Source: a virus | Reading direction: 5' to 3' (one strand) | Virus record (IMG/VR): IMGVR_UViG_3300017917_004134 | Coordinates: 1 to 29,752 of that record | DNA: 29,752 bases | Shown: one piece after another, positions 382-23,816 of the stretch | Layout of the letters: each line of letters begins with the position of its first letter | How positions within the stretch are numbered: the first letter of the stretch is position 1 | Made by a program: the position numbers and the translations under genes | Notes under the pieces: model-generated | Databases searched by the model: none | The model's input: only the letters and a program-made list of their open reading frames with translations | Told to the model about the DNA's origin: nothing

Positions 382-2241
382 ATGGATCAAAATAATATGA
401 CGGTATGGCAAAGGTTATCCAAAACATTTGGACCCAACTCTTTGCTCAATCAAGATTATCCAACATTTAAGTTTGATAAGAAAGAACTTTTAAGAACTAA
501 AAGTAGAGAAGAATACGAGAAAGAAAAACTACAAGCGCAACAAACGTTTTATTTAACAAACCAATGGGCAAAGGTAGAAAATAATTTATATTCTCAAGCG
601 ATCTACTATGAGCCAACAAGATTATCCGCACAATATGATTATGAGAGTATGGAATATACTCCGGAAATTTCAGCGGCATTGGATATCTATGCGGAAGAAT
701 CTACTACAACAAATGAAGATGGTTATATTTTACAAATATATTCAGAATCAAAAAGAATTAAAAGCGTTTTAGCTGATTTATTTAATAATTCATTAGATAT
801 AAATACAAATCTACCAATGTGGACTCGAAATACCTGCAAGTATGGTGATAATTTCGTTTATTTGAAATTAGATCCTGAAAAAGGTATTGTCGGCTGCCAA
901 CAATTACCAACGATAGAAATTGAAAGACATGAAGTAGGTGTATCTCAAAAAATTTCAGTTGATATTACCCAAGAATTGGATGCCAATAAAAAAGCATTAC
1001 ATTTTACTTGGAAAAATAAAAATATGGAATTTCAATCGTGGGAGATCGCCCACTTTAGACTATTAGGTGACGATAGAAAATTACCTTATGGTACATCCAT
1101 GCTAGAGAAAGCAAGAAGAATTTGGAAGCAATTACTTCTTTCAGAAGACGCAATGTTAATTTATCGTACTTCAAGAGCACCAGAAAGAAGAATGTTTAAA
1201 GTGTTTGTTGGAAACATGGACGATGATGATGTTGAGGCATATGTACAGCGTGTTGCAAATAAATTTAAAAGAGAACAAATTGTTGATAGTAATACCGGTA
1301 ATGTGGATATGAGATTTAATCAAATGGCTGTAGATCAAGATTATTTCATTCCTGTTAGAGACCCGGCAGCACCGGATCCAATTACAACTCTACCGGGCGC
1401 AACAAATCTATCAGAAATTGCGGACATAGAATATATTCAGAAAAAATTATTAACCGCTCTTCGCGTACCAAAAGCGTTTTTAGGGTTTGAAGAAGTTGTT
1501 GGTGATGGAAAGAATTTATCATTACAAGATATTCGTTTCGCTCGCACCATCAATAGAATTCAAAAAAGTATGATCCAAGAATTAAATAAAATTGCGATCG
1601 TGCATTTATTTTTACTTGGATTTGAAGATGAACTATCAAATTTCACTTTAGGTTTAACTAACCCTTCAACACAAGCAGATCTATTGAAGATTGATGTTTG
1701 GAAAGAGAAAGTTTTATTGTATAAAGATTTGGTTGCAGATCCAGGAAACGGTATTCAAGCAACTTCATCGACATGGGCTAAAAAACATATTTTTGGATGG
1801 TCAGACGAGGAGGTTCGTTTGGATTTACAACAACAAAGAATCGAAAGAGCTGTTGGTGAGGAATTAAAAGCTACACCGACCGTAATTACTAAAACAGGAT
1901 TATTCGATACTATCGATAAACTTTATGGAAATACTTCGGGCGCGACGCAAGTTGCTGCAGCAAATGCTGCGGGAGAGGAAACATCTCCAACACCGTCAAT
2001 GCCGTCATTTGGTTCTGAATTAGGCGGAGGTGAAGCCGGTGCTCCGCCGCCGGCAGAGACTGAAGGAGCCGCTGCGCCACCTACAGGAGAACCTGAATTA
2101 GCTCCGGAATCCAAGAAAAAAGACATGAACATTTTACTCGAAAATAATTGGATTGACGGCGCAAGAATAATAGATTTAGGTGCTGCACAAGATTCTTTAG
2201 GTGAAATTTCAAAAGAATTGGATAAGTTATTAAATTCGTAA
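382..2241 (+). CDS. 20: Portal protein (T4 gp20-like)
   Basis: This 619-residue protein is taken to be the dodecameric portal at the unique head vertex, which starts prohead assembly, is the DNA channel and docks the terminase and neck. Support comes from its position just after the terminase, its size (T4 gp20 is 524 residues) and family-like segments: an N-terminal part with YTPEISAALDIYAEES (about residues 92-107), a core with WEIAHFRLLGDDRKLPYG (about 220-240), and DIEYIQKKLLTALRVPKAFLG (about 350-370), the usual portal stem/crown region. Residues about 515-577 are a Pro/Ala/Gly/Glu-rich linker. A conserved-looking tail of about 40 residues follows, ending in ISKELDKLLNS. The linker DNA (about 1930-2110) is much richer in GC than its surroundings. 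The ATG has no Shine-Dalgarno sequence but an A-rich leader. Confidence 0.9.
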   Translation: MDQNNMTVWQRLSKTFGPNSLLNQDYPTFKFDKKELLRTKSREEYEKEKLQAQQTFYLTNQWAKVENNLYSQAIYYEPTRLSAQYDYESMEYTPEISAALDIYAEESTTTNEDGYILQIYSESKRIKSVLADLFNNSLDINTNLPMWTRNTCKYGDNFVYLKLDPEKGIVGCQQLPTIEIERHEVGVSQKISVDITQELDANKKALHFTWKNKNMEFQSWEIAHFRLLGDDRKLPYGTSMLEKARRIWKQLLLSEDAMLIYRTSRAPERRMFKVFVGNMDDDDVEAYVQRVANKFKREQIVDSNTGNVDMRFNQMAVDQDYFIPVRDPAAPDPITTLPGATNLSEIADIEYIQKKLLTALRVPKAFLGFEEVVGDGKNLSLQDIRFARTINRIQKSMIQELNKIAIVHLFLLGFEDELSNFTLGLTNPSTQADLLKIDVWKEKVLLYKDLVADPGNGIQATSSTWAKKHIFGWSDEEVRLDLQQQRIERAVGEELKATPTVITKTGLFDTIDKLYGNTSGATQVAAANAAGEETSPTPSMPSFGSELGGGEAGAPPPAETEGAAAPPTGEPELAPESKKKDMNILLENNWIDGARIIDLGAAQDSLGEISKELDKLLNS

Positions 2242-2265: not shown

Positions 2266-2964
2266 ATGACTTTCGGAACATTAAAATCAATAATTGAGCA
2301 AAATTTACTTGAATCTTACAAAGATGAAAAAGATTTCAAGAAATCATTAAGAGAATTTAAACATAACGTATTAAACGATAAATCAATATCGAAGATATAC
2401 GACATATACGATCAATTAAGCACACCTCAAGGGCTAACCGAAGAAGATGCTAAAGATTTTTTATATGAGGGAGTTAATCTTATTCAAAAACTTTTACCAA
2501 CAGTAAAGTTACCAAAAACACTATCAGAAAATATAAAAAACAAATATTCTGATATAGATACGCTTGTTAGTATTTCAAAAACTAATCTATTGGAAAGAGT
2601 GGGCGCCAAAAAAAATATTATTTCAATATTAACCATGAAAAACAATTCAGTTAATGAGTCTATTAATATTCCAATTAAATCGATGGTTAAAATTGCTAAT
2701 CAAACATTGAGATCTTATATTGAAAATCTTGATGAAACTACCAAGAAAGAATTTTATCAAATTGTTTCCGAAGATACGGCTGTTTTAGAAAATAAATTTG
2801 AAAAAATTCGTGAGAGTGCTATTACAAAACTCAATACAATTTTAGAGAATGAAAGTGAATCCGAAGTAAAAGTTAAAATTATTGAAACAATTGAAAAACT
2901 TAAAGATGAAAAATTTGATCAAATGAACTTTTTGAGATTAAAAAATCTTGAACAATCAATTTAA
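2266..2964 (+). CDS. Unknown 232-aa helical protein in the gp67/gp68 (prohead core) position
   Basis: I do not recognise the family. The protein is almost wholly predicted helix, rich in Lys, Glu, Ile and Asn, with no cysteines and no membrane segment. The N-terminus (MTFGTLKSIIEQNLLESYKD) resembles in style the short amphipathic head-targeting leaders of T4 internal proteins, and it has (I/L)-x-E sites (IIE, LLE) that a gp21-type protease could cut. In T4 the genes between portal and protease (67 and 68) encode prohead core proteins, so a core or internal head role is possible, but this rests on position only. It starts 24 bases after the portal stop. Its 3' end converges on the bS21 gene, with a 9-base overlap of the two coding ends. 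Confidence 0.75.
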   Translation: MTFGTLKSIIEQNLLESYKDEKDFKKSLREFKHNVLNDKSISKIYDIYDQLSTPQGLTEEDAKDFLYEGVNLIQKLLPTVKLPKTLSENIKNKYSDIDTLVSISKTNLLERVGAKKNIISILTMKNNSVNESINIPIKSMVKIANQTLRSYIENLDETTKKEFYQIVSEDTAVLENKFEKIRESAITKLNTILENESESEVKVKIIETIEKLKDEKFDQMNFLRLKNLEQSI

Positions 2965-3714: not shown

Positions 3715-4431
3715 ATGAAAAATTTAAGAATATTAGAAGCAAATGAAATTGGTCACGGGATCCTAATTGAAATGGATGCTGGATGGATTTCACCTAAAGA
3801 CAAATTTAATGAAAATGTATTAAGAGAAGCGAAGGAGATGGATTATAGAAATCCGTTTGAATTTTATGCCGTCCTTCAAAAATATAATACACCAAATAGA
3901 AACGGTAGATTTTATCCTGAAAGAATTTTAAAAAGAGAAGCAGATAACTATAAAAAAGCAATTGCTAAAGGATTATCAACTTCAGAGCTTAACCATCCTG
4001 AATCATCATTGATTGATTTGGATAGAGTTTCTCACCTTATTACTGATATATGGTGGGATGGAATTATCTTAATGGGTAAATTAAAGTTATTAACTTCGCC
4101 CGGGTTTCATGAAAGAGGCATTGTTTCAACCAAAGGCGATCAAGCAGCTAATTTAATGAGACAGGGTGTTACACTAGGAATATCATCTCGTGGTGTAGGG
4201 TCACTTAAAAAAGTTGGTGAAAGAAATGAAGTACAAGATGATTTTGAATTAATTTGTTTTGATTTAGTTTCATCACCATCAACTCCCGGAGCGTATTTAT
4301 TTTCAAATGCTGACGATCGTAGTAAATATGAAGAAAATTTAGATGAAGAAAAAAAATACAAAGAAAATAATCCACACGTCGAAAAATCAGTTGACTTAAT
4401 GAGGAAATTAACCGATTTTTTAGGAAAATAA
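3715..4431 (+). CDS. 21: Prohead core maturation protease (T4 gp21-like)
   Basis: This 238-residue protein fits the herpes/T4-type serine protease fold (peptidase family S80/U9) that sits inside the prohead and cuts capsid, scaffold and internal proteins after (I/L)-x-E. Visible marks are NTPNRNGRFYPERIL (about 58-72), the catalytic His in ELNHPE (His94), the nucleophile in GISSRG (Ser157 or Ser158), and ELICFDLVSSPSTPGA (about 178-193), typical of the family end. Its place between the portal and the scaffold/major capsid genes is the T4 order. The start ATG lies 12 bases after a TATTTATT element. The stop is 4 bases before the next gene, so the two are co-transcribed. Confidence 0.9.
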   Translation: MKNLRILEANEIGHGILIEMDAGWISPKDKFNENVLREAKEMDYRNPFEFYAVLQKYNTPNRNGRFYPERILKREADNYKKAIAKGLSTSELNHPESSLIDLDRVSHLITDIWWDGIILMGKLKLLTSPGFHERGIVSTKGDQAANLMRQGVTLGISSRGVGSLKKVGERNEVQDDFELICFDLVSSPSTPGAYLFSNADDRSKYEENLDEEKKYKENNPHVEKSVDLMRKLTDFLGK

Positions 4432-4794: not shown

Positions 4795-6210
4795 ATGCAA
4801 GAAAAAAACAAATTAGTTGAAGAGGCACTTATTCAAATGAAACAAGTTGAAGAAGCTATTGCCGAAAACGCAAAAGGAATACTTGCTTCTACTATGAAGG
4901 AAGAAATCAATCAGTTAGTAAAAGAATCTCTTTCAGAGCAAGACGATGAAGATGAGGTTGATTTAGACGCAGATATTGATGCTGACACAGACATGGATAC
5001 AGATGATGTAGATTTGGATGTTGATGTTGATTTAGATGCAGATAATTTGGATGATATGGATGATGAAGATTCGGATGATTCTGAATTAGATTTTGATATG
5101 GATTCTGAAGAAGAAACTCCAATTGATTTAACCGGTGCTTCTGACGAAGAAATTCTTCGAGTGTTTAAAGCTATGGGTGAAGAAGACGGAATTATTATCA
5201 GTAAAGATAATAATGAAGTTCATCTTAAAGACAACGATGCTGATGTTGAGTATCTTGTTAAGCTTGGCGAATCTGAAGAAGAGTATGATTTAGACGAAGA
5301 AATGTACGAAGCGGAAGATGATCAGACAACTAAAATTATTAATAGTATTTTTGGTAAAGAAAATGAAGGATCATATTCTGAGGAAGACGAAGAGGTTATG
5401 TATGAAATCGAATTTGACGAACAAGAAGAAGATCTTGACGAACAAGAAGAAGATCTTGACGAAGAAGAAGAAACAGAAAATTTGGAGGAATCTCGTAAAT
5501 CAAAGTCTCTTAAAGGGAAATCAAAAATAAAACCTAAAGGTGTTGGAATTGGTAGCGGTCCTAAATTCGCATACAAAAAAACTTCCGGAGGCTTCAAAGA
5601 AGAAAAGAAAGAAGGTCCAAAAAGTGTGGGAACTGGTAAAGCTAAATTCGAATACAAGAAAGGTGCAAATATTGAAGGCAAATCTAAAGTTGTTAAGAAG
5701 GCAGAAACTAAAGAAGCTGCAAGAACTTTAGGAAATGGTTCTGATTTTAGAAAGGGCGGATTACCAAAATCTAGAGCTCATTCTAAATTTAATACCGCAA
5801 TAAAAAATGAATCTGTTAATTCTGAAGTTTCTTTATTAAGAGAAAAGAATGATGAATATAGAAAAGCATTAAATGTTTTCAGAGAAAAACTTAATGAAGT
5901 TGCTATTTTCAATTCCAACCTAGCTTACGCTACTAGATTATTCACAGAACACTCAACAACTAAAAAAGAAAAAATTAACATTCTTAGAAGATTTGATGAG
6001 GTCGCTACATTAAAAGAATCAAAATCTCTTTATAAGTCTATAAAAGATGAATTATCTAAAACTTCAAGCACAGAATCAATCAATGAATCAGTAAAAACTA
6101 AATTAAATAAAACAGTTTCAACAGGTTCATCAACTACTTTAATTGAATCAAAAACTTATGAAAATCCTCAATTCTTAAGAATGAAAGATTTAATGAGTAA
6201 ATTAAAGTAA
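4795..6210 (+). CDS. Prohead scaffold (core) protein, T4 gp22 position
   Basis: This 471-residue protein lies directly before the major capsid gene and after the protease, the position of the internal scaffold on which the capsid assembles and which is later degraded. It has four blocks: an N-terminal helical part (1-55); an extremely acidic Asp/Glu region (about 56-235) with runs such as DLDADIDADTDMDTDD; a basic Gly/Lys region (about 236-320) with the imperfect repeat GPKFAYKK/KAKFEYKK; and a C-terminal coiled-coil part (about 345-471) with LREKNDEYRKALNVFREKL and ILRRFDEVATLKES. The coiled-coil end looks most conserved. Many (I/L)-x-E sites would allow digestion by the protease. Unlike compact T4 gp22 it is long and strongly charge-segregated. 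Confidence 0.78.
   Translation: MQEKNKLVEEALIQMKQVEEAIAENAKGILASTMKEEINQLVKESLSEQDDEDEVDLDADIDADTDMDTDDVDLDVDVDLDADNLDDMDDEDSDDSELDFDMDSEEETPIDLTGASDEEILRVFKAMGEEDGIIISKDNNEVHLKDNDADVEYLVKLGESEEEYDLDEEMYEAEDDQTTKIINSIFGKENEGSYSEEDEEVMYEIEFDEQEEDLDEQEEDLDEEEETENLEESRKSKSLKGKSKIKPKGVGIGSGPKFAYKKTSGGFKEEKKEGPKSVGTGKAKFEYKKGANIEGKSKVVKKAETKEAARTLGNGSDFRKGGLPKSRAHSKFNTAIKNESVNSEVSLLREKNDEYRKALNVFREKLNEVAIFNSNLAYATRLFTEHSTTKKEKINILRRFDEVATLKESKSLYKSIKDELSKTSSTESINESVKTKLNKTVSTGSSTTLIESKTYENPQFLRMKDLMSKLK
5416..5457 (+). repeat. 21-bp tandem repeat in scaffold gene
   Basis: Two identical 21-base units (5416-5436 and 5437-5457), each encoding DEQEEDL, are followed by a degenerate third unit (DEEEE). 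The repeat is in frame and lengthens the acidic region, suggesting recent slippage. Confidence 0.85.
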
Positions 6211-6241: not shown

Positions 6242-8035
6242 ATGGGAGCATTATTAGAATCAGGTCTTGTCGGTAACATCGGTCTTAAGCACCTTAAAGT
6301 TATCAAAGAAGACACAATCAACAAATGGGACAAATTAGGATTCCTTGAGGGTCTTAAAGGTCATATGAGAGAAAACGTAGCACAGCTTTATGAAAACCAA
6401 GCGTCGTTTTTGATTAACGAAGCATCATCTACATCTGATACAGGTGCATTTGAAACTGTGGTTTTTCCAATCGTTAGACGTGTATTCTCTAAATTATTAG
6501 CGAATGATATCGTTTCAGTACAAGCTATGAACTTACCAATCGGTAAATTATTCTACTTCGTACCTAACATTCAGTCTTACCAACCTGGTACTTCTGAGCA
6601 CTATGCACCTTACGGTTCTCCTAACCAAGCGGCAGGTCAAACACCTAATAGCGGTTATGATTACAATAACACTAAAGACCTTTATGATAGATTTTATGAA
6701 GGTAGTGAGCCTGCTTTAGATCCTCCGGGTTTATTCGATTACTCTAAAGGACAATATTCAGCAATCACTGCTGATGTTGCAACAGTAGCTTGGGTTGGTG
6801 ATCAGTTAGTAGTTTCAGGTTATGGTACTGATAATTACAGAAAAGTATTAATCGTTATGTCAGGTTTCGCATCTGATGGTGCCGGTAAATTAATCGGACC
6901 TGATGGTCAGCCAATGGATAATGAAGCTTTCCTTTCTGATTTAACAGTTTATGGCTCTCCAGCAAATCCAACAACCGCTGCAAACGCATCTAATCCTTAT
7001 TTATTTAGAGTTGTAACTCAAAGATATGGTAAAGGTATCGTTCAATACGGTAACAATAACGCAACATTAACTTTCCCTAATAGCAAAACAGATGGTGGTC
7101 AATATGATAACGTATGTGATGCTGAAGGTAAGATCTACTTAGAAGTTGATTTACAAGTTCCTGTATGTATCTCTTGTGGTGGTTCTTTAGACGGTTACAC
7201 AGGATCAACTTTCTCTTCAACAACTGCTGCAAACAGCGCATTCACAGCTACTTATAGAATCTATAAGAATCTTGAATTTGAAGATAAGATTGGTGAGGTT
7301 TCTTTTGATCTTATGTCAGTAACAGTTTCAGTTACAGAAAGAAAATTAAGAGCACAATGGTCTCCAGAAATGGCACAAGACGTTGCTGCGTTCCACAACA
7401 TCGATGCTGAAGCTGAATTAACAGCTTTATTGTCTGAACAAGTTGCTGCTGAAATCGATAGAGAAATCTTGAGAGATCTTAGAAAAGGTGCTGCTTGGAA
7501 TTTGAGATGGGATTACAACGGATGGAAGAGATTATCTTCTGTTGGTGCTGTACCTTACACTCAAAAAGACTGGAATCAAACATTGATTACAGCAATCAAC
7601 CAAATTTCTGCACAAATCCACAAATCAACTCTTAGAGGTGGTGCAAACTGGATTGTAGTTTCTTCTGAAATTAGTGCAATATTTGATGATTTGGAATATT
7701 TCCACGTATCAAATGCTGCTCCAGAGCAAGATCAGTACAACATGGGTATTGAAAGAGTTGGTACATTAGCGGGTCGTTATCAAGTGTATAGAGATCCTTA
7801 TTTCCCAGCAAACCAAGTGTTAATGGGACACAAAGGTACATCTTTACTTGATACAGGTTACATCTACGCACCATATGTACCATTACAATTAACTCCAACT
7901 ATGTACAATCCGTTTAACTTTACACCAATCAAGGGTATCATGACTAGATACGCCAAGAAGATGGTGAACAACAGATTTTACGGCAGAATTACAGTTGATG
8001 GTGTTAGAACATTTGATTTAAGAGAATTGAGATAA
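6242..8035 (+). CDS. 23: Major capsid protein (T4 gp23-like)
   Basis: This 597-residue protein forms the hexamers of the head. Its N-terminal propeptide (1-60) ends ENQASFLINE, then ASSTSD. This mirrors T4 gp23, whose leader ends at an (I/L)-x-E-type cut, so mature protein probably begins at Ala61. Next comes FPIVRRVFSKLLANDIVSVQ (about 76-95) and AMNLPIGKLFYF (about 97-108), hallmark gp23 segments. A long insertion of about 200 residues in the middle (Gly/Asn/Thr-rich, about 130-330) could be a surface insertion domain. The fold resumes with EMAQDVAAFHNIDAEAELTA and ends GRITVDGVRTFDLREL. The leader before the ATG is nearly G-free and A-rich (AAAACAATACTAAAA), a good start context for a Bacteroidota ribosome. 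Codons are visibly richer in C and G than in neighbours, as expected for very high expression. Confidence 0.93.
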   Translation: MGALLESGLVGNIGLKHLKVIKEDTINKWDKLGFLEGLKGHMRENVAQLYENQASFLINEASSTSDTGAFETVVFPIVRRVFSKLLANDIVSVQAMNLPIGKLFYFVPNIQSYQPGTSEHYAPYGSPNQAAGQTPNSGYDYNNTKDLYDRFYEGSEPALDPPGLFDYSKGQYSAITADVATVAWVGDQLVVSGYGTDNYRKVLIVMSGFASDGAGKLIGPDGQPMDNEAFLSDLTVYGSPANPTTAANASNPYLFRVVTQRYGKGIVQYGNNNATLTFPNSKTDGGQYDNVCDAEGKIYLEVDLQVPVCISCGGSLDGYTGSTFSSTTAANSAFTATYRIYKNLEFEDKIGEVSFDLMSVTVSVTERKLRAQWSPEMAQDVAAFHNIDAEAELTALLSEQVAAEIDREILRDLRKGAAWNLRWDYNGWKRLSSVGAVPYTQKDWNQTLITAINQISAQIHKSTLRGGANWIVVSSEISAIFDDLEYFHVSNAAPEQDQYNMGIERVGTLAGRYQVYRDPYFPANQVLMGHKGTSLLDTGYIYAPYVPLQLTPTMYNPFNFTPIKGIMTRYAKKMVNNRFYGRITVDGVRTFDLRELR

Positions 8036-8225: not shown

Positions 8226-9011
8226 ATGAATTACATCACATCTGATGCAATGCCTTCTGCATTCATCACAAAAAGAAAATCAAGATTGAAGGTTTATCAA
8301 TCAAACAATGTTCATCTAAATGATGGCGATAATTTCGAAATTGAAATTTATAACCCGACAACAGCTCCAATTTTAGCAAAGATTAAACTTAATGGAAGTT
8401 ACATCTCAAGTAATGGTGTTGTAATAAAACCGGGACAAAGGGTGTTTTTAGAGCGTTTCCTTGACAGTAATAATAAGTTTGTATTCAACACCTATGAAGT
8501 GGATAACAACCGCGAAAATAGGGACGCTATTGCGTTTAATGGGGACGTTACTATTGAGTTCTATAATAAAACCCAACCAAATCATTACACATATGGCACA
8601 ATTTTAACAAATACATATGGTTCAACCTCAACAAGCACATATGGTTCAACCTCAACTGGCCCGTCAAATTATAATACATTTACAACCACTAGTAGTTTAT
8701 CTAATTCTGCAATGCCAATATCAGGAAGCATATCATATTCAAATACAAGTCAGTCTTTAAATTTAACAGCGAAATATAATAGTAAAAATATTGAAACTGG
8801 TATGGTTGAAAAAGGTGAAACTTCTAATCAAACTTTCACATCATCATATGATAATTTTGAATATTTTTCATTCAAAAAAGTTGAGTATAAAATATTACCT
8901 TCCGGTGTTAAAGCGGTTTATTCTTCGGATCTAAAACAATATTGCACCGATTGCGGTAAGAAAGTTAAGAAAAATCATAAATTCTGTCCGGCTTGCGGAA
9001 CAAAAATTTAA
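8226..9011 (+). CDS. Putative virion protein with Tyr/Ser/Thr repeats and C-terminal zinc ribbon
   Basis: This 261-residue protein has three parts. Residues 1-120 form a beta-rich domain (VHLNDGDNFEIEIYNPTT, then IKLNGSYISS and VIKPGQRVFLERFLD), the style of a small jelly-roll or capsid-decoration domain. Residues about 121-215 are a low-complexity Thr/Ser/Tyr/Asn linker with TYGSTSTS repeated. The end, CTDCGKKVKKNHKFCPACG (239-259), is a C-x2-C/C-x2-C zinc ribbon. I have the impression that the N-terminal pattern recurs in uncultured-virus proteins of unknown role, but cannot name a family. It follows the capsid gene and has its own long leader and terminator, so a head decoration or fibre role is plausible, though unproven. 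A zinc ribbon at the end of such a linker is unusual. Confidence 0.7.
   Translation: MNYITSDAMPSAFITKRKSRLKVYQSNNVHLNDGDNFEIEIYNPTTAPILAKIKLNGSYISSNGVVIKPGQRVFLERFLDSNNKFVFNTYEVDNNRENRDAIAFNGDVTIEFYNKTQPNHYTYGTILTNTYGSTSTSTYGSTSTGPSNYNTFTTTSSLSNSAMPISGSISYSNTSQSLNLTAKYNSKNIETGMVEKGETSNQTFTSSYDNFEYFSFKKVEYKILPSGVKAVYSSDLKQYCTDCGKKVKKNHKFCPACGTKI
8613..8660 (+). repeat. 24-bp tandem repeat encoding TYGSTSTS
   Basis: Two 24-base units (8613-8636 and 8637-8660) differ only at the last few bases and encode TYGSTSTS and TYGSTSTG. A further partial copy of the ACATATGG core lies at about 8589. They extend the linker of the zinc-ribbon protein. Confidence 0.85.
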
Positions 9012-9458: not shown

Positions 9459-9466
9459 TATTTATA
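9459..9466 (+). promoter_or_regulatory. TATTTATA element in a divergent gene-start region
   Basis: TATTTATATTAT lies 14 bases before the ATG at 9481 and 14 bases before the minus-strand start at 9444. For the minus-strand gene it reads TATAAATA, the T4 late-promoter core, and for the plus-strand gene it has the sense seen elsewhere in the window. It may act in both directions; this is inferred. Confidence 0.5.
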
Positions 9467-9480: not shown

Positions 9481-9879
9481 ATGAAGAAAAAAGAAATTAG
9501 TGAAGCGACTGCATCAGGAAGTGCGGGGAAGTTTAAAGTTCCTATTGTATTGGCACCCCAACTATGGAATACGGATCAATTAGGTCCATTCACCGAACCG
9601 GTGTATGACTACCTTAATGCTGAATTAGCATATGAAGAGGCTGATGGGGATTTCAAAGAAAGTCCAAAAGAAAGAGAGCGAATCGAAAGAAGAACTGATA
9701 GGACCGCAGAAATTGACATGTATTTAAAAAAATTCTATACATACCAAAATGATGATGAGGGTAGCAATATTGGCCAAATAGAAAAACCCCAAGAAATAAA
9801 TAATCCCATGGGGTTGTCTGTTAAAAATGAAACATTAAGACGATTAATCAAAAAAGTTATTAGAGAAAATTTTGGTTAA
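9481..9879 (+). CDS. Putative head-associated protein, 132 aa, with C-terminal helix tag
   Basis: Function unknown. The N-terminus EATASGSAGKFKVPIVLAPQ has a Gly/Ala/Ser start typical of small virion proteins. The middle is acidic with a Glu/Arg-rich helix (SPKERERIERRTDRTAE). The C-terminus VKNETLRRLIKKVIRE followed by NFG matches a helix found at the N-terminus of the proteins at 10321 and 10643, and ends in an (I/L)-x-E site like the capsid cleavage site. This suggests delivery to, or processing in, the prohead, but it is only inference. The stop codon and that of the convergent gene at 9876 share the palindrome TTAA. Confidence 0.7.
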   Translation: MKKKEISEATASGSAGKFKVPIVLAPQLWNTDQLGPFTEPVYDYLNAELAYEEADGDFKESPKERERIERRTDRTAEIDMYLKKFYTYQNDDEGSNIGQIEKPQEINNPMGLSVKNETLRRLIKKVIRENFG

Positions 9880-10274
9880 TTCACTTCAATTTTATCTAAT
9901 ATGTCTTTTAAAGAATGTTGGATATTGTTTTTAATTTCATGTTCCAAAACAATTCTTTTATTTTCCATTGTTTGATTAAATAAGTTGATTAAACTTGCAT
10001 ATAGAACGTCATGTTCAATAAAAACGCTATAACTATAAACATGGTTTATAATTGTAATGTTTCTACTTTCGATCACAATAAAAATATTCTGATCGTCATT
10101 TTTGATGAACTTTTTGCCGGAAATCGGAGCCAAAGTTAAAGATGAGGATGGGTTGTTTATCAGCTTTTTGGCTATATTAACTGAATATCTTTCTTCCTCG
10201 GTAACTTGTTGTTTCGGACGCAAAATGTGTCGGCACTTAATATAAAGTCTTAATATTCTTGTTTTAATTTTCAT
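9876..10274 (-). CDS. Unknown protein, 132 aa
   Basis: I do not recognise it. A very basic N-terminus (MKIKTRILRLYIKCRHILRPK) precedes an alpha/beta body with strands NIFIVIESRNITIINHVYSY and SVFIEHDVLYASLIN, and a helical end (NNIQHSLKDILDKIEVN). The strand-rich middle resembles a small, independently folding domain, with no visible catalytic motif. It is the last gene of the long minus-strand block, separated by 46 bases from the gene upstream. That spacer contains TATTTTTG 5 bases before the ATG, which fits a Bacteroidota -7 element (TAnnTTTG) but leaves almost no leader, so I do not call a promoter. Confidence 0.7.
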   Translation of the reverse strand: MKIKTRILRLYIKCRHILRPKQQVTEEERYSVNIAKKLINNPSSSLTLAPISGKKFIKNDDQNIFIVIESRNITIINHVYSYSVFIEHDVLYASLINLFNQTMENKRIVLEHEIKNNIQHSLKDILDKIEVN

Positions 10275-10320
10275 ACCGCAAAAATAAGTGATAATTTGGA
10301 ATAAAAAAATAATTTTTTAA

Positions 10321-10641
10321 TTATTTCCTTTTTCTGCGCAAACTTTCTTGAACATCATCGAAATCTAAATAGCTATCATCCTTTTTGGTTTCGTTCATTA
10401 AGAAATCAAAAACTTGATCAATATTCGTTTTAGCTTCCGAAATATGGTCATCGGCCCAATCATGACCTTGTTGGATAATCATATCCACTTTGTCCTGATC
10501 TAATTCTAATAGCATTTCGCATTGTCTTTTAATTTGTTCTAAATTTGAAAAGAACATATAATTTGCTTCATCCTGTTCTTTGAGAACTTTTCTAACCAAT
10601 GTGGTTAAATCTTTTTCTGTTAGTTTTACTATTTTATTCAT
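10321..10641 (-). CDS. Putative internal head or virion protein with N-terminal helix tag, 106 aa
   Basis: The start VKLTEKDLTTLVRKVLKE is a basic amphipathic helix shared with the upstream neighbour and with the end of the gene at 9481. It ends at LKE, which fits the (I/L)-x-E rule of gp21-type proteases. The rest is acidic and helical (YMFFSNLEQIKRQCEMLLELD...), then an Asp-rich part and a basic tail RRKRK. The gene starts 1 base after the neighbour's stop. A leader removed on packaging into the head, as in T4 internal proteins, would explain the layout. No enzyme domain is seen. Confidence 0.75.
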   Translation of the reverse strand: MNKIVKLTEKDLTTLVRKVLKEQDEANYMFFSNLEQIKRQCEMLLELDQDKVDMIIQQGHDWADDHISEAKTNIDQVFDFLMNETKKDDSYLDFDDVQESLRRKRK

Positions 10642-10642
10642 A

Positions 10643-11044
10643 TTACTTCCAACTGTCTAAATTCAACGTTTTTATTTTTGCCAATATTCGGTCGTTCATA
10701 TTTGAATATTGATTAAAGTGATAAATAGAATTATCTATTAAATTAATTAAAGTTTGTTTTCTTTGTGATGGTATATTTAATGAATTCACATTATTTTTTA
10801 AATTATTTAATTCTTTCATGACCTGCTCATTAGGAACATCTAATTTTTTTAACTTCATTATTAGTTGTTCTAATTTACTAACATTTTTGAAAAAATCATA
10901 ACCATATCCTCTTTTGATACCTTTAACGCCTCTATAGACATTTTTTAAAGAATCTAAAGGTCCTTCATTAATTTCATTTTCATTAATAACCTTATTAACA
11001 ATTCTAATAAGATCCTGTTCGTTTAATTTTACTATTTTACTCAT
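10643..11044 (-). CDS. Putative internal head or virion protein with N-terminal helix tag, 133 aa
   Basis: The N-terminus VKLNEQDLIRIVNKVINE is the second copy of the shared helix. INE at its end is identical in type to the predicted cut site of the major capsid protein (LINE before Ala). The body is helical and basic, with leucine-rich heptad-like runs (LEQLIMKLKKLDVPNEQVMK, then NNLKNNVNSLNI), suggesting a coiled coil. The ATG overlaps the stop of the 500-aa structural gene (ATGA). It may be a processed internal or neck-associated protein; function unknown. Confidence 0.75.
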   Translation of the reverse strand: MSKIVKLNEQDLIRIVNKVINENEINEGPLDSLKNVYRGVKGIKRGYGYDFFKNVSKLEQLIMKLKKLDVPNEQVMKELNNLKNNVNSLNIPSQRKQTLINLIDNSIYHFNQYSNMNDRILAKIKTLNLDSWK

Positions 11045-16426: not shown

Positions 16427-16786
16427 TTACATTTTATATGTTTCTTCTTTGGATACGTCTTTTTCAATTAGATTTTGTATTAAATCATCATCTAAATCAG
16501 CCATAGAAAATGACTCAATATTATTGTTTGATTTCTCCCAAATTGATGATTGTAATTTTGATAAACTAATTTTCTTTTCAACACAATCATTAATTATTTT
16601 TTGTTGTTTTTCAATAACGGGTCCAATTGTTACCATATCAGTAGGATCCTTTAGCATTGATAACATCTTATTTTGAATTCTAATTGCTGTTTGTCTTTGT
16701 TCTACAAGTTCATTGTAAATCTCTTGCATCAGAGCTAACATAGAATCCTTTGTGAAATTAATTTCTTTACGTTGTGGTCTTGGCAT
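16427..16786 (-). CDS. Helical phage protein, 119 aa, unknown
   Basis: This is an all-helical, coiled-coil-like protein: FTKDSMLALMQEIYNELVEQ, then RQTAIRIQNKMLSMLKD, a turn at MVTIGP, a second helix (EKQQKIINDCVEKKISLSKL) and an acidic tail. The pattern suits a two-helix assembly partner. It ends 7 bases before the 706-aa gene and starts 17 bases after the sigma factor gene. A TATTTATA element is only 3 bases before its ATG, so if that is a -10 box the transcript would be leaderless or begin inside the gene. A start at Met16 is a possible alternative. Confidence 0.72.
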   Translation of the reverse strand: MPRPQRKEINFTKDSMLALMQEIYNELVEQRQTAIRIQNKMLSMLKDPTDMVTIGPVIEKQQKIINDCVEKKISLSKLQSSIWEKSNNNIESFSMADLDDDLIQNLIEKDVSKEETYKM

Positions 16787-16789
16787 AAT

Positions 16790-16797
16790 TATAAATA
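16790..16797 (-). promoter_or_regulatory. TATTTATA element upstream of the 119-aa gene
   Basis: In gene sense AGTATTTATAATT runs up to the ATG at 16786, in the 17-base gap after the sigma factor gene. The closeness to the start codon (3 bases) is shared with both homing endonuclease genes. Role inferred. Confidence 0.4.
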
Positions 16798-16803
16798 CTA
16801 TTT

Positions 16804-17553
16804 TTATTGATTTTTCATTTTAGTTTGAATTACAATATATAATTTTTTAAATCGTTTAATTGATGATCTAATTTCTTTAGTACTTAAATTGGTCATTTCT
16901 CTCAACGAAAGAAGAATTACATTTTTATTAAACTTATTATTATCGGCACCCGAAAATATTGTTTCATAATTATCAAAAAGATCAACTAATGCATACCCTA
17001 ATTTTTTTTCATTTTCATTTAGATTATCAACTTCAATAAAATCCTTTAATTCTTTCAAATATTCAACAATGATTGTGTCCGTTTCTACAACATCATCATC
17101 AATACGATAAACCATATCAGGCCTTTCCTCAATACTTGAGGAGATGTCTTCATATGATATTTTTCTATTTGTTTCTTTTTGATCTTTAATTATTTGGCCC
17201 ATTAAGTAATTCTTACAAATTGTGCCAAAATAAGAATACGCTTTCTTGTTTTTTGACGGTTTAAATTTATCTACCTTTGTCATTAAAAAAGAATGAGTAT
17301 CAATATGAATATCATTAAAGTCCATATTTTTACGATACAGTTTGTATCGTCTTATAATAGATGATATCATCTTATCAAGAGGAGATCTTAAAAATTCATT
17401 ATAAATTTTATTTTTTTCTTCAAGAGTTTTTGCGGCTAAAAAATTTCTAACCGCAAGCTCTTCTCTAACATCAAAATAATTTTCTTTAACTACTTTACGT
17501 CCTCTTTTTTTTGATAAACCATCTTCTGTTACTCCAGATAGAATTTCTAGCAT
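16804..17553 (-). CDS. 55: Late RNA polymerase sigma-like factor (T4 gp55-like)
   Basis: This 249-residue protein resembles T4 gp55, a divergent sigma that redirects host RNA polymerase to phage late promoters. The supporting block is residues 80-135: NDIHIDTHSFLMTKVDKFKP, then NKKAYSYFGTICKNYLMGQI and IKDQKETNRKISYED. It matches the sigma region-2 pattern of gp55 (a run ending in a basic helix, an aromatic 'aYfg.icknyl', then KxxKE). The C-terminal part (about 208-249, REMTNLSTKEIRSSIKRFKK) looks like a helix-turn-helix, absent or reduced in T4 gp55. Its ATG overlaps the glycosyltransferase stop (TAATG), so the two are coupled. It is the natural reader of the TATTTATA elements in this window, though that link is inferred. 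Confidence 0.75.
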   Translation of the reverse strand: MLEILSGVTEDGLSKKRGRKVVKENYFDVREELAVRNFLAAKTLEEKNKIYNEFLRSPLDKMISSIIRRYKLYRKNMDFNDIHIDTHSFLMTKVDKFKPSKNKKAYSYFGTICKNYLMGQIIKDQKETNRKISYEDISSSIEERPDMVYRIDDDVVETDTIIVEYLKELKDFIEVDNLNENEKKLGYALVDLFDNYETIFSGADNNKFNKNVILLSLREMTNLSTKEIRSSIKRFKKLYIVIQTKMKNQ

Positions 17554-18359
17554 TAAGCATTTTGTGGTTGATATTTTATGGATCTATCGTCGGTGAAAAA
17601 ATACTCTTTTTTTGCCGTTTGAATCCAAAATTTAACTTCATCGTCGTATAATTTATCCTCACTAAATTTATAATTCCAAAATATAGAACCTTCCCTCATA
17701 TTAGTGTGTTTATAACCTAATTTAGGTATAGTCATAATTAAAACTGAATTATATGTTAATCTTAATAAAAATTCATAAGTAAATGTTAGTTTGATTGATG
17801 ATTTAAATCCGCCAAAATCACTAACAATACTTTTCTTAAATACAGATCCTGCGGTTTGAAAGTTTTGATAATCTTGTAAAGTTTCATTTGTTAAAACACC
17901 CATTTCTTGACTAAAGTTAGCAGCAAATGTTGCTTCATTTGTAAATCCAGCAAAAAGACCTTTTTCATCAGTTTCAACAACAACCGGAAGGAATACTTGT
18001 ACGTTTGGATATGATTTAATGTATTTATTTACATTATCAAACCATATTGATGAATACTCATCATCAAATTCAAATAAAGATATCCATTCCCCTTTAGCTT
18101 CTTTAATACCATAATTTACTTGATCGGCATAATTGGGATCTTTATCCCACACTAATTTAATAACATTTAATTTACCGAAATCATAATCTTTGAGTAAATT
18201 AACTAAAGACTCCTCTTGAGTATGAACTATAACTAATTCTTCAAATTCAATTTTTTGCGCTTGCAATGATTTTATTGCTTTATCGAAGTATTCATCAAAA
18301 TTTTTAGCTTTAGATGATTTTATTGGTAATACTACTGATAATGATAATTTATTTTCCAT
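17553..18359 (-). CDS. Glycosyltransferase, GT2-like (GT-A fold)
   Basis: This 268-residue protein has the GT-A pattern of family 2 enzymes, which move a sugar from a nucleotide sugar. SLSVVLPIKSS at the start is the first Rossmann strand. ELVIVHTQEE (about 41-50), then NYADQVNYGIKEAKGEWISL and FEFDDEYSSIWFDN (about 97-110), hold the acidic cluster that replaces the usual DxD metal site. GGFKSSIKLTFTYEFLLRL marks the acceptor half. There is no membrane segment, so it is soluble. The stop overlaps the sigma factor start by one base and the start is 1 base after the neighbouring GT4-like gene. The acceptor (virion protein, DNA base or host glycan) is not readable. Confidence 0.82.
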   Translation of the reverse strand: MENKLSLSVVLPIKSSKAKNFDEYFDKAIKSLQAQKIEFEELVIVHTQEESLVNLLKDYDFGKLNVIKLVWDKDPNYADQVNYGIKEAKGEWISLFEFDDEYSSIWFDNVNKYIKSYPNVQVFLPVVVETDEKGLFAGFTNEATFAANFSQEMGVLTNETLQDYQNFQTAGSVFKKSIVSDFGGFKSSIKLTFTYEFLLRLTYNSVLIMTIPKLGYKHTNMREGSIFWNYKFSEDKLYDDEVKFWIQTAKKEYFFTDDRSIKYQPQNA

Positions 18360-18360
18360 A

Positions 18361-19410
18361 TTATTCTTCGGTTTTTGTTATTTGATCTTCAAATGATTTA
18401 GCTCTAACGTTTAAATATCCCTCAAATAAAGAGACTACTTTAGAATCAAATTCTTGTTTATTATATTTTTCAACGGTCAATTTCATTTGTTCATATATCG
18501 ATGGGTTAATGTTATCTTCTAACCAATTTTGAATAAAATCAGCAATAACATCAGGCAATAATGTTGGATCTGTAACCCAAATACCATTTTCTTCTGTCAT
18601 CCATTCAGGTGACATATCAGGAACTTTTCCAATTACAGGTACGTTACTTGCCATAGATTCTAATGGAAAGGTACCAAATGAACTTTTATTGTCTATCCAG
18701 ACACTTGCAAAACATTCTCTTAAAGAATTTGCAAATTCTCTTTCAGATAATCCACGCAAGTCTCTAAAAGAGAACCATCTGTATTGTGGAAATTTTAAAT
18801 AAAACGTTTTAATTAGATTAATCGTATCACTTTGGTCTTTAGTATGAACCCCAATGATTGGGAATGGTGGTAATAAATTTGGTTTAAAATTATCGGTAAT
18901 GTATGGTTTTACAACATCAAAATTGGATTGTCTCATAATTCTTTCAAGATATTCTTTTTGAGTGTTTGAAGTTGTAATACACTTTAAAAATCCGAATTGG
19001 GCCCATGTTTGACCTGGCTGAAGTGTCTCAACAATATATGAATATGATTGAGTTAATACGATTTTAGCACAAGGCATTTGTTTTAATTGGTCCATTACAT
19101 ACCCAAATATTTCTGGTATAATTAGAAAATCTTCAGGTGAAATTTCCAAATTCTGACCTTCAATCGCTTTGTGAGGTAATTGAGCATACTCTTCATCAAG
19201 CCACGCAACAACTCCGGCATAATCTGATTTTTCGTGTAAAATAATTGGATTAAATCCATTTTCTTTTAATACCATAGCCATTTGATAAATGTATCTTACG
19301 GAGGCCTTGGCATTTCCTTTAGTGTCTTGTATCAAGAAATATATTCTTGATTTTTTGTCTTTCAAATTTTGAATAGACAGTTCTACTTTTTCTTTTAATG
19401 TGTTTGGCAT
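18361..19410 (-). CDS. Glycosyltransferase, GT4-like (GT-B fold)
   Basis: This 349-residue protein follows the GT-B layout. The N-terminal half has SRIYFLIQDTKGNAKASVRY (a donor/acceptor Rossmann start), VLKENGFNPIILHEK and ILTQSYSY-like strands. The C-terminal half has FGTFPLESMASNVPVIG (about 246-262), the E-x7-type signature of family 4, with the residues that hold the nucleotide sugar. The C-terminal helix returns with KYNKQEFDSKVVSLFEGY. No signal or membrane helix is seen. It lies between a GT2-like gene (1 base) and a 100-aa unknown (3 bases), and probably works in one pathway with the other glycosyltransferases of the window. Specificity cannot be read. Confidence 0.82.
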   Translation of the reverse strand: MPNTLKEKVELSIQNLKDKKSRIYFLIQDTKGNAKASVRYIYQMAMVLKENGFNPIILHEKSDYAGVVAWLDEEYAQLPHKAIEGQNLEISPEDFLIIPEIFGYVMDQLKQMPCAKIVLTQSYSYIVETLQPGQTWAQFGFLKCITTSNTQKEYLERIMRQSNFDVVKPYITDNFKPNLLPPFPIIGVHTKDQSDTINLIKTFYLKFPQYRWFSFRDLRGLSEREFANSLRECFASVWIDNKSSFGTFPLESMASNVPVIGKVPDMSPEWMTEENGIWVTDPTLLPDVIADFIQNWLEDNINPSIYEQMKLTVEKYNKQEFDSKVVSLFEGYLNVRAKSFEDQITKTEE

Positions 19411-19413
19411 ATA

Positions 19414-19716
19414 TTAATAATGATTAATAAGTTTTTTATTTAATAAACTGTTAAATGCTAGTCTAAACGGAATGGTTGATGTTATTTTACTTTTTTTAAT
19501 TAAATTATCGTCATAATTTTCCTCCTCGGATAAAATCACATCTATCAACATTTTAACTAATTCAAATTTAACAATATTAATTTTCATTTCACTAGAGCTA
19601 ACCGGCGAGCTATCTTCGCTTTTATCCTCTTCGTCTCCAAATTTGTCGGACATATCTATATATTTTTCAATTTCATCCAAATCTATATAGTAGTTTTCAC
19701 CTAATACTTCAATCAT
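19414..19716 (-). CDS. Unknown acidic protein, 100 aa
   Basis: I do not recognise it. The first 45 residues are very acidic and low in complexity (DKFGDEEDKSEDSSPVSSSE). The rest looks like a small helical domain (KINIVKFELVKMLIDVILSE, then TSTIPFRLAFNSLLNKKLIN). It overlaps the HAD-like gene by 8 bases and precedes the GT4-like gene by 3 bases, so the three are translated from one mRNA. The C-terminal half could bind a partner; no catalytic motif is seen. Confidence 0.7.
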   Translation of the reverse strand: MIEVLGENYYIDLDEIEKYIDMSDKFGDEEDKSEDSSPVSSSEMKINIVKFELVKMLIDVILSEEENYDDNLIKKSKITSTIPFRLAFNSLLNKKLINHY

Positions 19717-20302
19717 ATAGTTCTTTAATTTTACTTGCGAGATCCTTCAAAGTTGAAATTGAATGCTTTGAATTAATCTCCGAATTATATCCTGTGTTAA
19801 ACTTAATTACTTCTTTATCATCAGGATGATTTAATAATAGTTTAGGATTTGCCGTAAGTAAAACATCTATTGAATTCCATAATGAATTTAATGTGCTTTC
19901 GCTATAAAATTTAACTGTTTCAACTAAACAACCGAATTTAGATATAAAAAATAAAGACGCTGGTTTTGATTTACCTATTTCATCCGAAACAATTAGTATT
20001 TCATGGTTGTCCCTCATATCGAAATAAAAATCGTTAAAGTCTTGCATACTTGTCATTTCAACCGAACCTGCGTGACCAAAAATCTCCATGGTGTGTTCTT
20101 TATATAAAAAATCATAAAGCTCGTCAGCATCTTTAAAAGCTAAATGCGAAGCGATATCCATAGAAGTTAATTCTGAAATAACTTTATATTCAAATTCACT
20201 TTCTTCTTTATAGATGTTATCTATATACCATTTTTCGTATTCTTGTTGAATTTTTTTCAGGGTGTCTCTTAATACACCATTTAGTTCAATACCTATTCTC
20301 AT
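19709..20302 (-). CDS. HAD-fold protein with degenerate active site
   Basis: This 197-residue protein has the layout of a small HAD phosphatase (5'-nucleotidase-like), but the catalytic residues are changed. Motif I, normally DxDG, reads ELNG (Glu6, Asn8), so the nucleophile Asp is Glu and the acid/base Asp is Asn. Motif II is present as ILIVSDE (Ser106). Motif III Lys is Lys111 or Lys113 in GKSKP. Motif IV, normally a pair of acids (V-L-I-D-D-x-P), reads VLLTANP. The fold is therefore plausible but phosphatase activity is doubtful, and it may be a binding or regulatory protein. It begins the minus-strand block below the homing endonuclease, with a TATTTATT element 26 bases before its ATG. 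It overlaps the next gene by 8 bases. Confidence 0.7.
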   Translation of the reverse strand: MRIGIELNGVLRDTLKKIQQEYEKWYIDNIYKEESEFEYKVISELTSMDIASHLAFKDADELYDFLYKEHTMEIFGHAGSVEMTSMQDFNDFYFDMRDNHEILIVSDEIGKSKPASLFFISKFGCLVETVKFYSESTLNSLWNSIDVLLTANPKLLLNHPDDKEVIKFNTGYNSEINSKHSISTLKDLASKIKELYD

Positions 20303-20327
20303 TCTTCATATCTTTTTAATATATTAA

Positions 20328-20335
20328 AATAAATA
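20328..20335 (-). promoter_or_regulatory. TATTTATT element upstream of the HAD-like gene
   Basis: In gene sense AAATATTTATTTTAAT lies 26 bases before the ATG at 20302, at a distance like that of the portal element. It gives the lower minus-strand block its own possible start downstream of the homing endonuclease insertion. Role inferred. Confidence 0.45.
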
Positions 20336-20384
20336 TTTTTTTATTTTTAGTAAATAGTGTATTTTTATGAAAAATTGGGATACT

Positions 20385-20391
20385 TATTTAT
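20385..20391 (+). promoter_or_regulatory. TATTTAT element at the start of the homing endonuclease
   Basis: ACTTATTTATGTATATG puts the element across or just before the start codon (ATG at 20390 or 20396). Free-standing homing endonucleases often carry their own late promoter, so a separate start is plausible; inferred. Confidence 0.35.
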
Positions 20392-21394
20392 GTATATGAA
20401 AGAAAATAAAAGAAAAGTTTGGAGTGAATCTGAAATAGATTTTTTGGTGAAAAATTATTCAGAAATGTTTAATTCTGAATTAGTTAAAATATTAGATAGA
20501 AGTGAATTATCTATATATGTTAAGGCAAATAAATTAGGGTTATCTAAATCTTCCGAACATAAATCAAGATGTATTTCCAAAAGAAATAAAATGGTTGGAA
20601 GGAATTTAACCAACGATGCATTAGGTTTAATAGCTAAAGAATATAAAACTAAAACCGAGTTTCAAAAAAATGATCCGTCGGCATATTCTTCTGCAAGAAG
20701 AAGAGGAATTATAAATGAAATCTGTAGTCATATGATATCAAAATCTTTTAGTATTCCACAATTAATTTTAAAGGATATTATTTCAAAAATATATAAAACA
20801 AAAGACATTAATTATAATGACAGAAAAACATTAAAACCATATGAAATTGATGTTTATTTACCGGAATATAAAATAGGGTTTGAATATAATGGAAAAGGTT
20901 GGCATAACAACAATACTAGGGACGAGTTAAAAAATAAATTATCATTATTAAATGGTATTACATTAATAACGATAAGTGAAAATAATCGAGAATATGAGGA
21001 TGATATAAAAAAACAATTAATATGTAATATTGAAAAATTAAAAATTAAAATTGACGCTAGCCAAATTAATGAAGTTATAATAGATAACCCATACTCTATG
21101 GTGTATAATATAGAAGATTTAAGGAAAATTGCAAATTCATATACCTCATTTATTGATTTTTATAAAAACGAAAAATCAATATATACTAAAATAATGAGAT
21201 TAGGATTGATAGATGAAATGACTGATCACATGTGTTGCAGACGCAAAAAAAGAGAATTGGGTGAAATTGTTGAAAAAATAAATAAGTATCAATACCTTAA
21301 TGAATTAATCATTAATGATAGTAATACTTATTCATATGTTAAAAAAAATAAATTAGATCATCTGTTAATTAATTTGAAAAGAATTAGGAAATAA
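20390..21394 (+). CDS. Free-standing homing endonuclease (Vsr/PD-(D/E)xK-like nuclease with repeated DNA-binding motif)
   Basis: From ATG 20390 the protein has 334 residues. It starts with a Myb/SANT-like DNA-binding helix set (KVWSESEIDFLVKNYSEM). Next comes a motif of about 40 residues, FQKNDPSAYSSARRRGIINE to ICSHM. The nuclease core follows: KPYEIDVYLPEYKIGFEYNG then KGWHNN, with the E-x-D...E-x-N-G pattern of Vsr-like homing nucleases. Two more divergent copies of the 40-residue motif follow (SFIDFYKNEKSIYTKIMRLG.. and YLNELIINDSNTYSYVKKNK..). It lies on the opposite strand in an operon gap, 1 base from the PhoH stop, as expected for an invading selfish gene. The GTG at 20357 was rejected because the protein pattern begins near KENKRK. 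Target site unknown. Confidence 0.85.
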   Translation: MYMKENKRKVWSESEIDFLVKNYSEMFNSELVKILDRSELSIYVKANKLGLSKSSEHKSRCISKRNKMVGRNLTNDALGLIAKEYKTKTEFQKNDPSAYSSARRRGIINEICSHMISKSFSIPQLILKDIISKIYKTKDINYNDRKTLKPYEIDVYLPEYKIGFEYNGKGWHNNNTRDELKNKLSLLNGITLITISENNREYEDDIKKQLICNIEKLKIKIDASQINEVIIDNPYSMVYNIEDLRKIANSYTSFIDFYKNEKSIYTKIMRLGLIDEMTDHMCCRRKKRELGEIVEKINKYQYLNELIINDSNTYSYVKKNKLDHLLINLKRIRK

Positions 21395-21395
21395 T

Positions 21396-22172
21396 TTAAT
21401 TTGAATATCGCTTAATAATTTCTTTAATTATTGGATTTCTAATCACATCATCATCACTAAAACTACTTATACCAATATCATTAACATTATTAAGTCTTTT
21501 AATGGCATCAAAAAGTCCAGATTTTTCTTTATCTTTAAATTTATCGGATTGCTCGATATCACCCGATATGAAAAATTTACTATTAAAACCAATTCTCGTT
21601 AAAATTAGTTTCATTTCTAACGGCGTTGTATTTTGACTCTCTTCAACAATACATATTGAATTATCAATATTAAAGCCTCGCAAATAAGATATTGATAAAA
21701 CTTCAATAAACCCACTTTCTTTTAATTTTTCTCTAGTTTCTTTACCAATAATCTTATTTAATAAATAATACGATGGTATAATATATGGCTCCATTTTTTC
21801 CTCATAACTTCCGGGAAGACTTCCTAATCTAGAGTCACCACCTTCAACAACAGGTCTAATTATAATAATTTTCTCATAAGGAGTTTGAGGGTCAGATATT
21901 AAATCTATCGCAGCTTTCATTGAGATGTAGCTTTTGCCAGTTCCTGCGGGACCGGAACAGAGTACTATCTGATTATTCATTAAAGTTTCATAATAATTTT
22001 TTTGACTTTCAGTTAAAAATTTTTGTTTTGTTTTTTTCTTTAAAATAGAACAAATTTGTTCTTTTTTGGTTTTGATAACTTTTTCTTCGGAATCCGTTTT
22101 TGGCTCCGCGCTTTTTCTCGAGGTTCTCCCCATTTTATTTGTTTTAGTTGTTAATGAACTAATATTCAACAT
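21396..22172 (-). CDS. phoH: PhoH-like ATPase
   Basis: From ATG 22172 the protein has 258 residues and carries a PhoH-family P-loop ATPase domain, common in T4-like phages; the cellular role is unsettled (RNA/DNA helicase-like or phosphate-stress-linked). Motifs are Walker A GPAGTGKSY (about residue 74), RPVVEGGDSRLGSLPGSYEE (about 106-125), and a Walker B region SICIVEESQN, where EE replaces the usual DE. The ending FFISGDIEQSDK is the sensor block. The first 55 residues are basic and low in complexity. The start is uncertain: TTG 22187 and ATG 22133 (MGRTSRK) are alternatives, and I chose 22172, which overlaps the upstream gene by 14 bases. Confidence 0.88.
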   Translation of the reverse strand: MLNISSLTTKTNKMGRTSRKSAEPKTDSEEKVIKTKKEQICSILKKKTKQKFLTESQKNYYETLMNNQIVLCSGPAGTGKSYISMKAAIDLISDPQTPYEKIIIIRPVVEGGDSRLGSLPGSYEEKMEPYIIPSYYLLNKIIGKETREKLKESGFIEVLSISYLRGFNIDNSICIVEESQNTTPLEMKLILTRIGFNSKFFISGDIEQSDKFKDKEKSGLFDAIKRLNNVNDIGISSFSDDDVIRNPIIKEIIKRYSN

Positions 22173-23810: not shown

Positions 23811-23816
23811 TTTAAA

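Follow-up and report, generated by a model that had tools for sequence, protein, structure and literature searches.

The DNA stretch analysed here (the window) is a virus record of 29,752 bases. On its plus strand, the left part carries a T4-type head block. Three proteins between positions 9481 and 11044 carry a short helical tag, here called tag A. The features used below are:

382-2241, plus strand: portal protein gp20 (phrog_213, E=3.8e-65)
2266-2964, plus strand: head-block protein in the position that gp67/68 take in T4, with C-terminus NFLRLKNLEQSI
3715-4431, plus strand: prohead protease of the gp21/S77 type (phrog_207, E=3.6e-42)
4795-6210, plus strand: acidic, gp22-like scaffold, named by position and make-up only
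about 6169-6207, plus strand: C-terminal helix of the scaffold, QFLRMKDLMSKLK, which matches sister tag B
6242-8035, plus strand: major capsid protein gp23 (phrog_138, E=9.8e-67)
6410-6421, plus strand: predicted gp23 cut LINE↓A after residue 60, conserved in relatives
9459-9465, plus strand: promoter-like TATTTAT before the 9481 gene
9481-9504, plus strand: leader MKKKEISE of the 9481 protein, with a predicted cut (I/L)xE↓A
9820-9867, plus strand: C-terminal tag VKNETLRRLIKKVIRE, which the 9481 protein carries three residues ahead of its stop
10321-10575, minus strand: body of the 10321-10641 protein, a conserved helical domain, YMFFSNLEQIKRQ...
10576-10641, minus strand: N-terminal tag A of the same protein, residues 1-22, MNKIVKLTEKDLTTLVRKVLKE
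10643-10978, minus strand: body of the 10643-11044 protein, ENEINEGPLDSLKNVYRGVKGIKRGYG...
10979-11044, minus strand: N-terminal tag A of the same protein, residues 1-22, MSKIVKLNEQDLIRIVNKVINE

Within the head block, the capsid site LINE↓A is kept in all close relatives whose N-terminal region is complete. The protease's own N-terminus reads MKNLRILE↓A, and RILE↓A is found in 22 of 22 aligned relatives, which were picked with an RILEA pattern, and in unselected homologues as well. The C-termini of the 2266-2964 product and of the scaffold are similar, a likeness that is suggestive of a C-terminal binding helix shared among core proteins. The product of 8226-9011, adjoining the capsid gene, has a middle part rich in Ser and Thr and, at its C-terminus, a zinc ribbon (PF13240). 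By eye, glycosyltransferase-, methyltransferase-, dUTPase- and exonuclease-like genes were recognised on the minus strand at 16427-29632, and two endonuclease-like ORFs (20357-21394 and 28434-29222) in the right half of the window.

By capsid protein, Microcystis phage Mel-JY01, the Flavobacterium immuto phages and Rhodothermus phage RM378 are the closest cultured phages (37-42% identity), and IMG/VR holds hundreds of much closer relatives of the window phage. The AT-rich genomes and the kinship with immuto suggest Bacteroidota hosts.

Tag A and its (I/L)xE sites

The initial annotation had proposed that the N-termini of the 10321 and 10643 proteins and the C-terminus of the 9481 protein are one pattern on otherwise unrelated proteins. 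All three motifs were confirmed in the window sequence, in position and in frame, the 9481-9879 protein ending in SVKNETLRRLIKKVIRENFG and the stop, and the remainders of the three proteins share no relationship. The consensus of tag A is MKK(I/V)(I/V)(R/K)LTESDLxR(I/L)VK(R/K)V(I/L)xE(Q). It is a strongly amphipathic helix with a net charge of about +3, its last Glu is usually residue 22, and Pro and Cys are absent from all 114 tags A examined.

In the family of the 10321 protein, Glu9 and Glu22 are identical in 33 of 33 relatives and are followed by a linker of variable length, a conserved domain, a third invariant site of the form (I/L/V/M)xE↓G, and a basic, Cys-containing end. The third site lies at Glu99; it reads xE↓G in 42 of 45 members and VQE↓S in the window copy, whose basic C-terminal end is shortened. 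At all three conserved Glu columns P3 is I, L, V or M (F twice). AlphaFold predicted an isolated helix at residues 9-22 of the 10321 protein, between both invariant glutamates, and a separate helical body, for which Foldseek returned one uncultured phage protein (E=0.017), without function. The 10643-type body occurs in relatives alone, tagged, or fused behind other domains.

The patterns used for collection had partly fixed the glutamates of tag A, so these were measured again, with the columns masked, on loci reached through the capsid gene or a tagged body and not through the motif. In this masked set, numbered by the 18-residue core, Glu5 is present in 54 of 54 and Glu18 in 54 of 55 tags, P2 is variable, and P3 of Glu18 is L in 33, I in 14, V in 5 and M in 3 (I or L in 47 of 55). 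The tags do end in (I/L)-x-E, as had been read from the first three, with V or M making up the rest at P3. The suggested likeness to the capsid cut LINE stands for the (I/L)xE and fails at the next residue, which in tag A is Gln in 39 of 55 cases, unlike the Ala (or Ser) after Glu at the capsid, gp21 and 9481 sites. Inside tag A is a second invariant site, (L/I)-x-E↓S, absent from the initial annotation; in N-terminal tags it could be the actual cut equally with the last Glu.

The 321-kb contig G001 has 53 N-termini in which two hydrophobic-x-E sites stand 8-16 residues apart (shuffled mean 18, maximum 27). Contig G019 has 39 (mean 14, maximum 20) and the immuto phage described below 17 (mean 7, maximum 11), with no excess in Mel-JY01 and RM378, phages without tags. 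Single-genome tests were used because an enrichment of N-terminal (I/L)xE in pooled genomes was inflated by orthologues and was set aside. A general N-terminal mature-end motif, (I/L)xE↓A/S/G-(T/S), showed no enrichment outside the 9481 family.

The alignment of the 9481 family has 49 members, 41 of which cover the N-terminal site. All 41 have I or L at P3 and Glu at P1, and the next residue is Ala in 36 and Ser in 3. A further site, (I/L/V/M)xE↓D, stands ahead of a conserved DLAVWFG domain in 48 of 48 members, and the C-terminal helix ends in (I/L)xE in 47 of 49. The window copy is without the DLAVWFG domain and is 132 residues long, against about 230. A Cys- and Lys-rich DLAVWFGTKKKPKG domain, conserved in most relatives, is missing from the window copy (9481-9879); parts of this domain have weak matches to cyanophage and pelagiphage proteins. 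The AlphaFold prediction for the family is poor (pLDDT 53), and its one feature is a weakly supported helix at the C-terminal end (residues 219-230). One relative (L187:5165-5905) ends in KKTVRLTESDLVRLVKKIINEQIG, which is the N-terminal tag consensus itself, and the N- and C-terminal versions are therefore one element, as the initial annotation had supposed.

Tag A is also found between two domains of one chain (loci L122, L067, L128, L166, L071, L025 and L271). Such fused, tagged chains look like a polyprotein with a putative cut site at each joint. In the fusions L122:7547-8299, L067:15721-16473, L071:7154-7924, L166:13352-14053 and L128:12930-13673, the tag joins an upstream domain to a 10321- or 10643-type body, and this upstream domain often begins with a short leader ending in (I/L)xEQ. 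A tag-A-like C-terminus of the 12563 protein was dropped because its Glu is not kept in relatives.

Distribution, cargo and genomic company

A profile of the tag found 51 proteins in 14 phage genomes or contigs at a score of at least 10, against 4 in shuffled copies, and 41 against 0 at a score of at least 12. When the fetched relatives are included there are 196 distinct N-terminal tags A, on bodies that make up at least 114 families without detectable mutual similarity, and G001 has about a dozen tagged proteins. The initial annotation had called for a search of the genome and its relatives for the pattern at protein ends, and the pattern turns out to be far commoner than the three proteins it noted. 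An exact degenerate DNA pattern of tag A was found in at least 120 stretches in IMG/VR, whereas 257 Gb of bacterial and archaeal genomes contained 3, which indicates that tag A belongs to phages. Two of the three cellular matches (L286 and L287) lie on one contig, QCKH01000009.1, of a Prochlorococcus single-cell assembly that also contains T4-type capsid and protease genes; the contig probably comes from a phage that was sorted along with the cell or contaminated the assembly. A tblastn comparison with cultured phages turned up none with tag A: a 23-residue query gave nothing useful, a 69-residue query of concatenated tags gave one chance match only, and for the full 10321 and 9481 proteins the only matches were records of uncultured phages or of very distant ones.

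Tags from a single genome have 55-60% identity as proteins, against 6-7% for the next 40 residues, and the codons for identical residues agree in 54-56%. The tag is therefore an old element, and it is selection on the protein, not recent copying, that keeps the tags alike.

Few of 112 representative tagged proteins match known families. The recognised bodies are PG_binding_1 (three), LysM (one), M23 (one) and a YqiA-like esterase (one). The median length of tagged proteins is 136 residues, and basic and acidic bodies are about equally many, unlike the internal proteins of T4, which are basic.

Of the 27 long contigs or genomes with tag A, 13 encode a gp21-type protease, each of them together with gp23. 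The other 14, which include the 160-kb G025, are without gp21 and, one weak match apart, without gp23; a portal search on them, run without a positive control, found none. Among them, G019 has 132 proteins in common with G001 and begins at the edge of the head block, and is therefore a cut-off fragment; the remaining ones may be fragments too. As they stand, the 14 contigs, one of them a demonstrated fragment, count against a link to the head. Other genes of the window's T4-like group are present in 110 of the 120 tag-A loci listed, and many tagged genes in G001 lie far from the head block.

The TATTTATnnTA-type element ahead of the 9481 gene also occurs in the window upstream of 382, 2266, 3715, 4795, 11041, 16427, 19709 and 28434, and is perhaps a late promoter. 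In this phage group TATTTAT is found ahead of portal, gp21, scaffold and 9481-type genes. In G001 it stands before 9 of 11 tagged genes, while only 2 of 365 positions lie within genes; since roughly a quarter of the other genes have it as well, it is given a supporting role and no more.

Sister tags and the scaffold

Further leaders were found by comparing N-termini without a motif and by pattern:

Tag B: MKKQILSEEFRRMQKLAGIITE (70 N-terminal cases)
Tag C: MxLNEEIxRIKSIMGLLxE
Tag D: MENFDLKKFLVENKLTxNSKLLKE
Tag E: MKKSQLRxIIKEAL
Tag F: SKIRHIQEANxxLEKRLLKE

Tags A, B, C, D and F have a common plan, (I/L)xE - helix - (I/L)xE, in which the glutamates of B and C were partly fixed by the patterns and those of D and F were free. 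What tag B appears to copy is the helix at the C-terminus of its own phage's scaffold. A profile of its 12-residue core places the scaffold C-terminus first among 57,140 sequence windows in Mel-JY01, first among 9,138 in the stretch analysed here, and third among 48,409 in immuto, behind that phage's two tagged proteins. On contigs with tag B, the C-terminus of the scaffold reads R[FWM][KQR]xLAG[IL]. Tag-B genes are located between gp21 and the scaffold; of 11 tag-B loci that include gp21, 7 have the tagged gene immediately beside it, on the same strand. Mimicry of the scaffold's N-terminal helix (KEEINQLVKESLSEQ) by tag A looked appealing on inspection but was rejected, as it ranked 7 of 9,101 sequence windows here, which is not significant.

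The cultured Flavobacterium phage vB_FspM_immuto_2-6A (Immutovirus; NC_055915) has tag B on two proteins (25061-25456 and 111675-112139) and tag D on four (1803-2318, 103806-104354, 117631-118632 and 118632-118931), and its tag-D product of 117631-118632 is annotated as a cobalamin adenosyltransferase. Immuto is related to the window phage by its major capsid protein (42%) and has tags B, D and E, but unlike the window phage it is without tag A. It is a cultured system where the leader idea can be tested.

Proposed role and alternatives

The sequences show the tag itself, its modularity, its restriction to phages, the constraint on it, its architecture, its genomic company and the likeness of tag B to the scaffold. 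From these we infer, and hold to be probable, that tag A is a portable leader which targets proteins to the prohead core and is probably trimmed by gp21, the bodies being enclosed in the head and then ejected. The tag helix would bind the assembling core (scaffold and protease) inside the prohead, and the closing shell would take in the tagged late protein. A cut by the gp21-type protease, probably after one or both invariant glutamates, would then free the body, which would be kept with the DNA and pass into the host at ejection. Tag B plausibly has the binding surface of the scaffold's C-terminal helix. The capsid-like site in the 9481 protein, together with sister tags that copy the scaffold and adjoin gp21, supports head targeting, and the lack of significant likeness between tag A and its own scaffold counts against a core leader.

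We also put forward a wider reading tentatively, leaning slightly against it ourselves: T4-like phages whose hosts are aquatic and probably Bacteroidota would have interchangeable leader families A-F, mostly of the plan (I/L)xE-helix-(I/L)xE, and would use them to bring dozens of unrelated proteins per genome inside the head. With at least one family, which copies the C-terminal helix of the scaffold, the cargo would enter the prohead as a scaffold impostor and be freed when gp21 destroys the core.

A cut after the last Glu is the weakest step of the proposed mechanism. Gln mostly follows this residue, unlike the Ala or Ser elsewhere, and a C-terminal tag would stay on the protein after such a cut; both points count against trimming there. 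They would fit a tag that is never cut, a helix docking into the prohead or another part of the virion with its glutamates capping the helix or binding. The amphipathic make-up, free of Pro and Cys, and the Thr-Glu-Ser-Asp stretch, which resembles a helix start, would fit it too. Against a docking helix speak the combination of invariant Glu, fixed hydrophobic P3 and variable P2 at several domain boundaries of the same proteins, the match of these sites to those of the capsid and gp21, and their recurrence in sister tags differing in sequence, and we regard it as possible and rather doubtful. The initial annotation's proposal of a capsid-targeting equivalent is partly supported: there is one modular (I/L)-x-E tag in gp21-bearing phages, best taken as a head-targeting leader, while the Gln after Glu and a C-terminal tag that such a cut would not remove speak against trimming at the last Glu.

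It is unlikely that the tag directs proteins to the tail, the baseplate or the cell envelope and not to the head. The recognised bodies are mostly peptidoglycan-active, so a tail location would fit them, and the two N-tagged genes of the window end a minus-strand operon, apparently with tail or baseplate genes. Muralytic domains are known in head-ejected proteins too, however, T7 gp16 being an example. The position of the tag-B genes, the copying by tag B of the scaffold, which is an inner prohead protein, and the capsid-like cut site in the 9481 protein likewise argue for the head. We think it very unlikely that the tag is an import or docking signal for a non-structural assembly, such as the replication or transcription machinery or a jumbo-phage compartment. 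Some carriers are indeed jumbo phages (about 320 kb), and the tagged genes of G001 are often distant from the head block, but most loci belong to one T4-like group and not to jumbo phages at large, (I/L)xE is invariant at the tag ends, and tag B, which has the same plan, points to the scaffold. Chance similarity of charged amphipathic N-terminal helices, whose K/E/L/I/V-rich composition is common in AT-rich phages, is refuted by the profile and pattern counts and has a negligible probability.

The proposed leader for the prohead core was compared with known systems. In T4, gp21 cuts after (L/I)-X-E and destroys the core, internal proteins reach the core through leaders, and both ends of Alt are processed; Asp at the cut site stops processing but leaves targeting intact (PMC9026906). 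Tag A is like the T4 capsid targeting sequence in being a short leader on unrelated proteins of one phage, in its (I/L)-x-E end, and in its occurrence in phages with a gp21-type protease, gp20, a gp22-like protein and gp23, and Alt is a precedent for processing at both ends. It differs in length (22 residues, against 10-19 for T4 leaders), in having two (I/L)xE sites, and in being C-terminal and internal as well, where known T4 leaders are N-terminal. Also unlike T4, it is found on more than 100 families, a dozen or more per genome, and Gln mostly follows its last Glu. Compared by eye only with T4 MKTYQEFIAE, tag A has no evident match beyond MK- and the (I/L)xE end; the T4 IPI leader differs from the IPIII leader as well. 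In a 50-kb stretch of T4, besides the internal proteins, the gp22 N-terminus EQLIAEA ties as the best match to QEFIAEA, which is suggestive of a likeness between the T4 leader and the N-terminus of gp22.

In phage P1, about 30 residues from the N-terminus of DarB are enough for a foreign protein to enter the head; unlike the tag A carriers, the Dar proteins have no common consensus, and no separate scaffold is known there (PMC9024508). According to the sections cited of a study of SPN3US/phiKZ-type phages, their head proteins have N-terminal propeptides, two of them only 20-24 residues long, which the prohead protease removes after X-E motifs, and a C-terminal propeptide is known in SPN3US (PMC10052503). 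These phages are of a different lineage, and no leader common to many unrelated proteins is seen in those sections (PMC10052503). Tag A most likely works like the capsid-targeting sequences of T4 and the DarB signal of P1. No published description of the leaders A-F was found in the literature searched, the coverage of which is incomplete.

If the targeting reading is true, a 22-residue word in raw sequence would mark proteins that are carried in the head and probably injected, and the injected proteome of uncultivated phages would be readable directly from metagenomes. More than 100 families, mostly without known domains, would become candidates for early takeover of the host and counter-defence in abundant uncultivated phages. 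A leader that imitates the scaffold would explain how T4-like heads recruit varied cargo, and the tags would provide new packaging tags for phage-based protein delivery.
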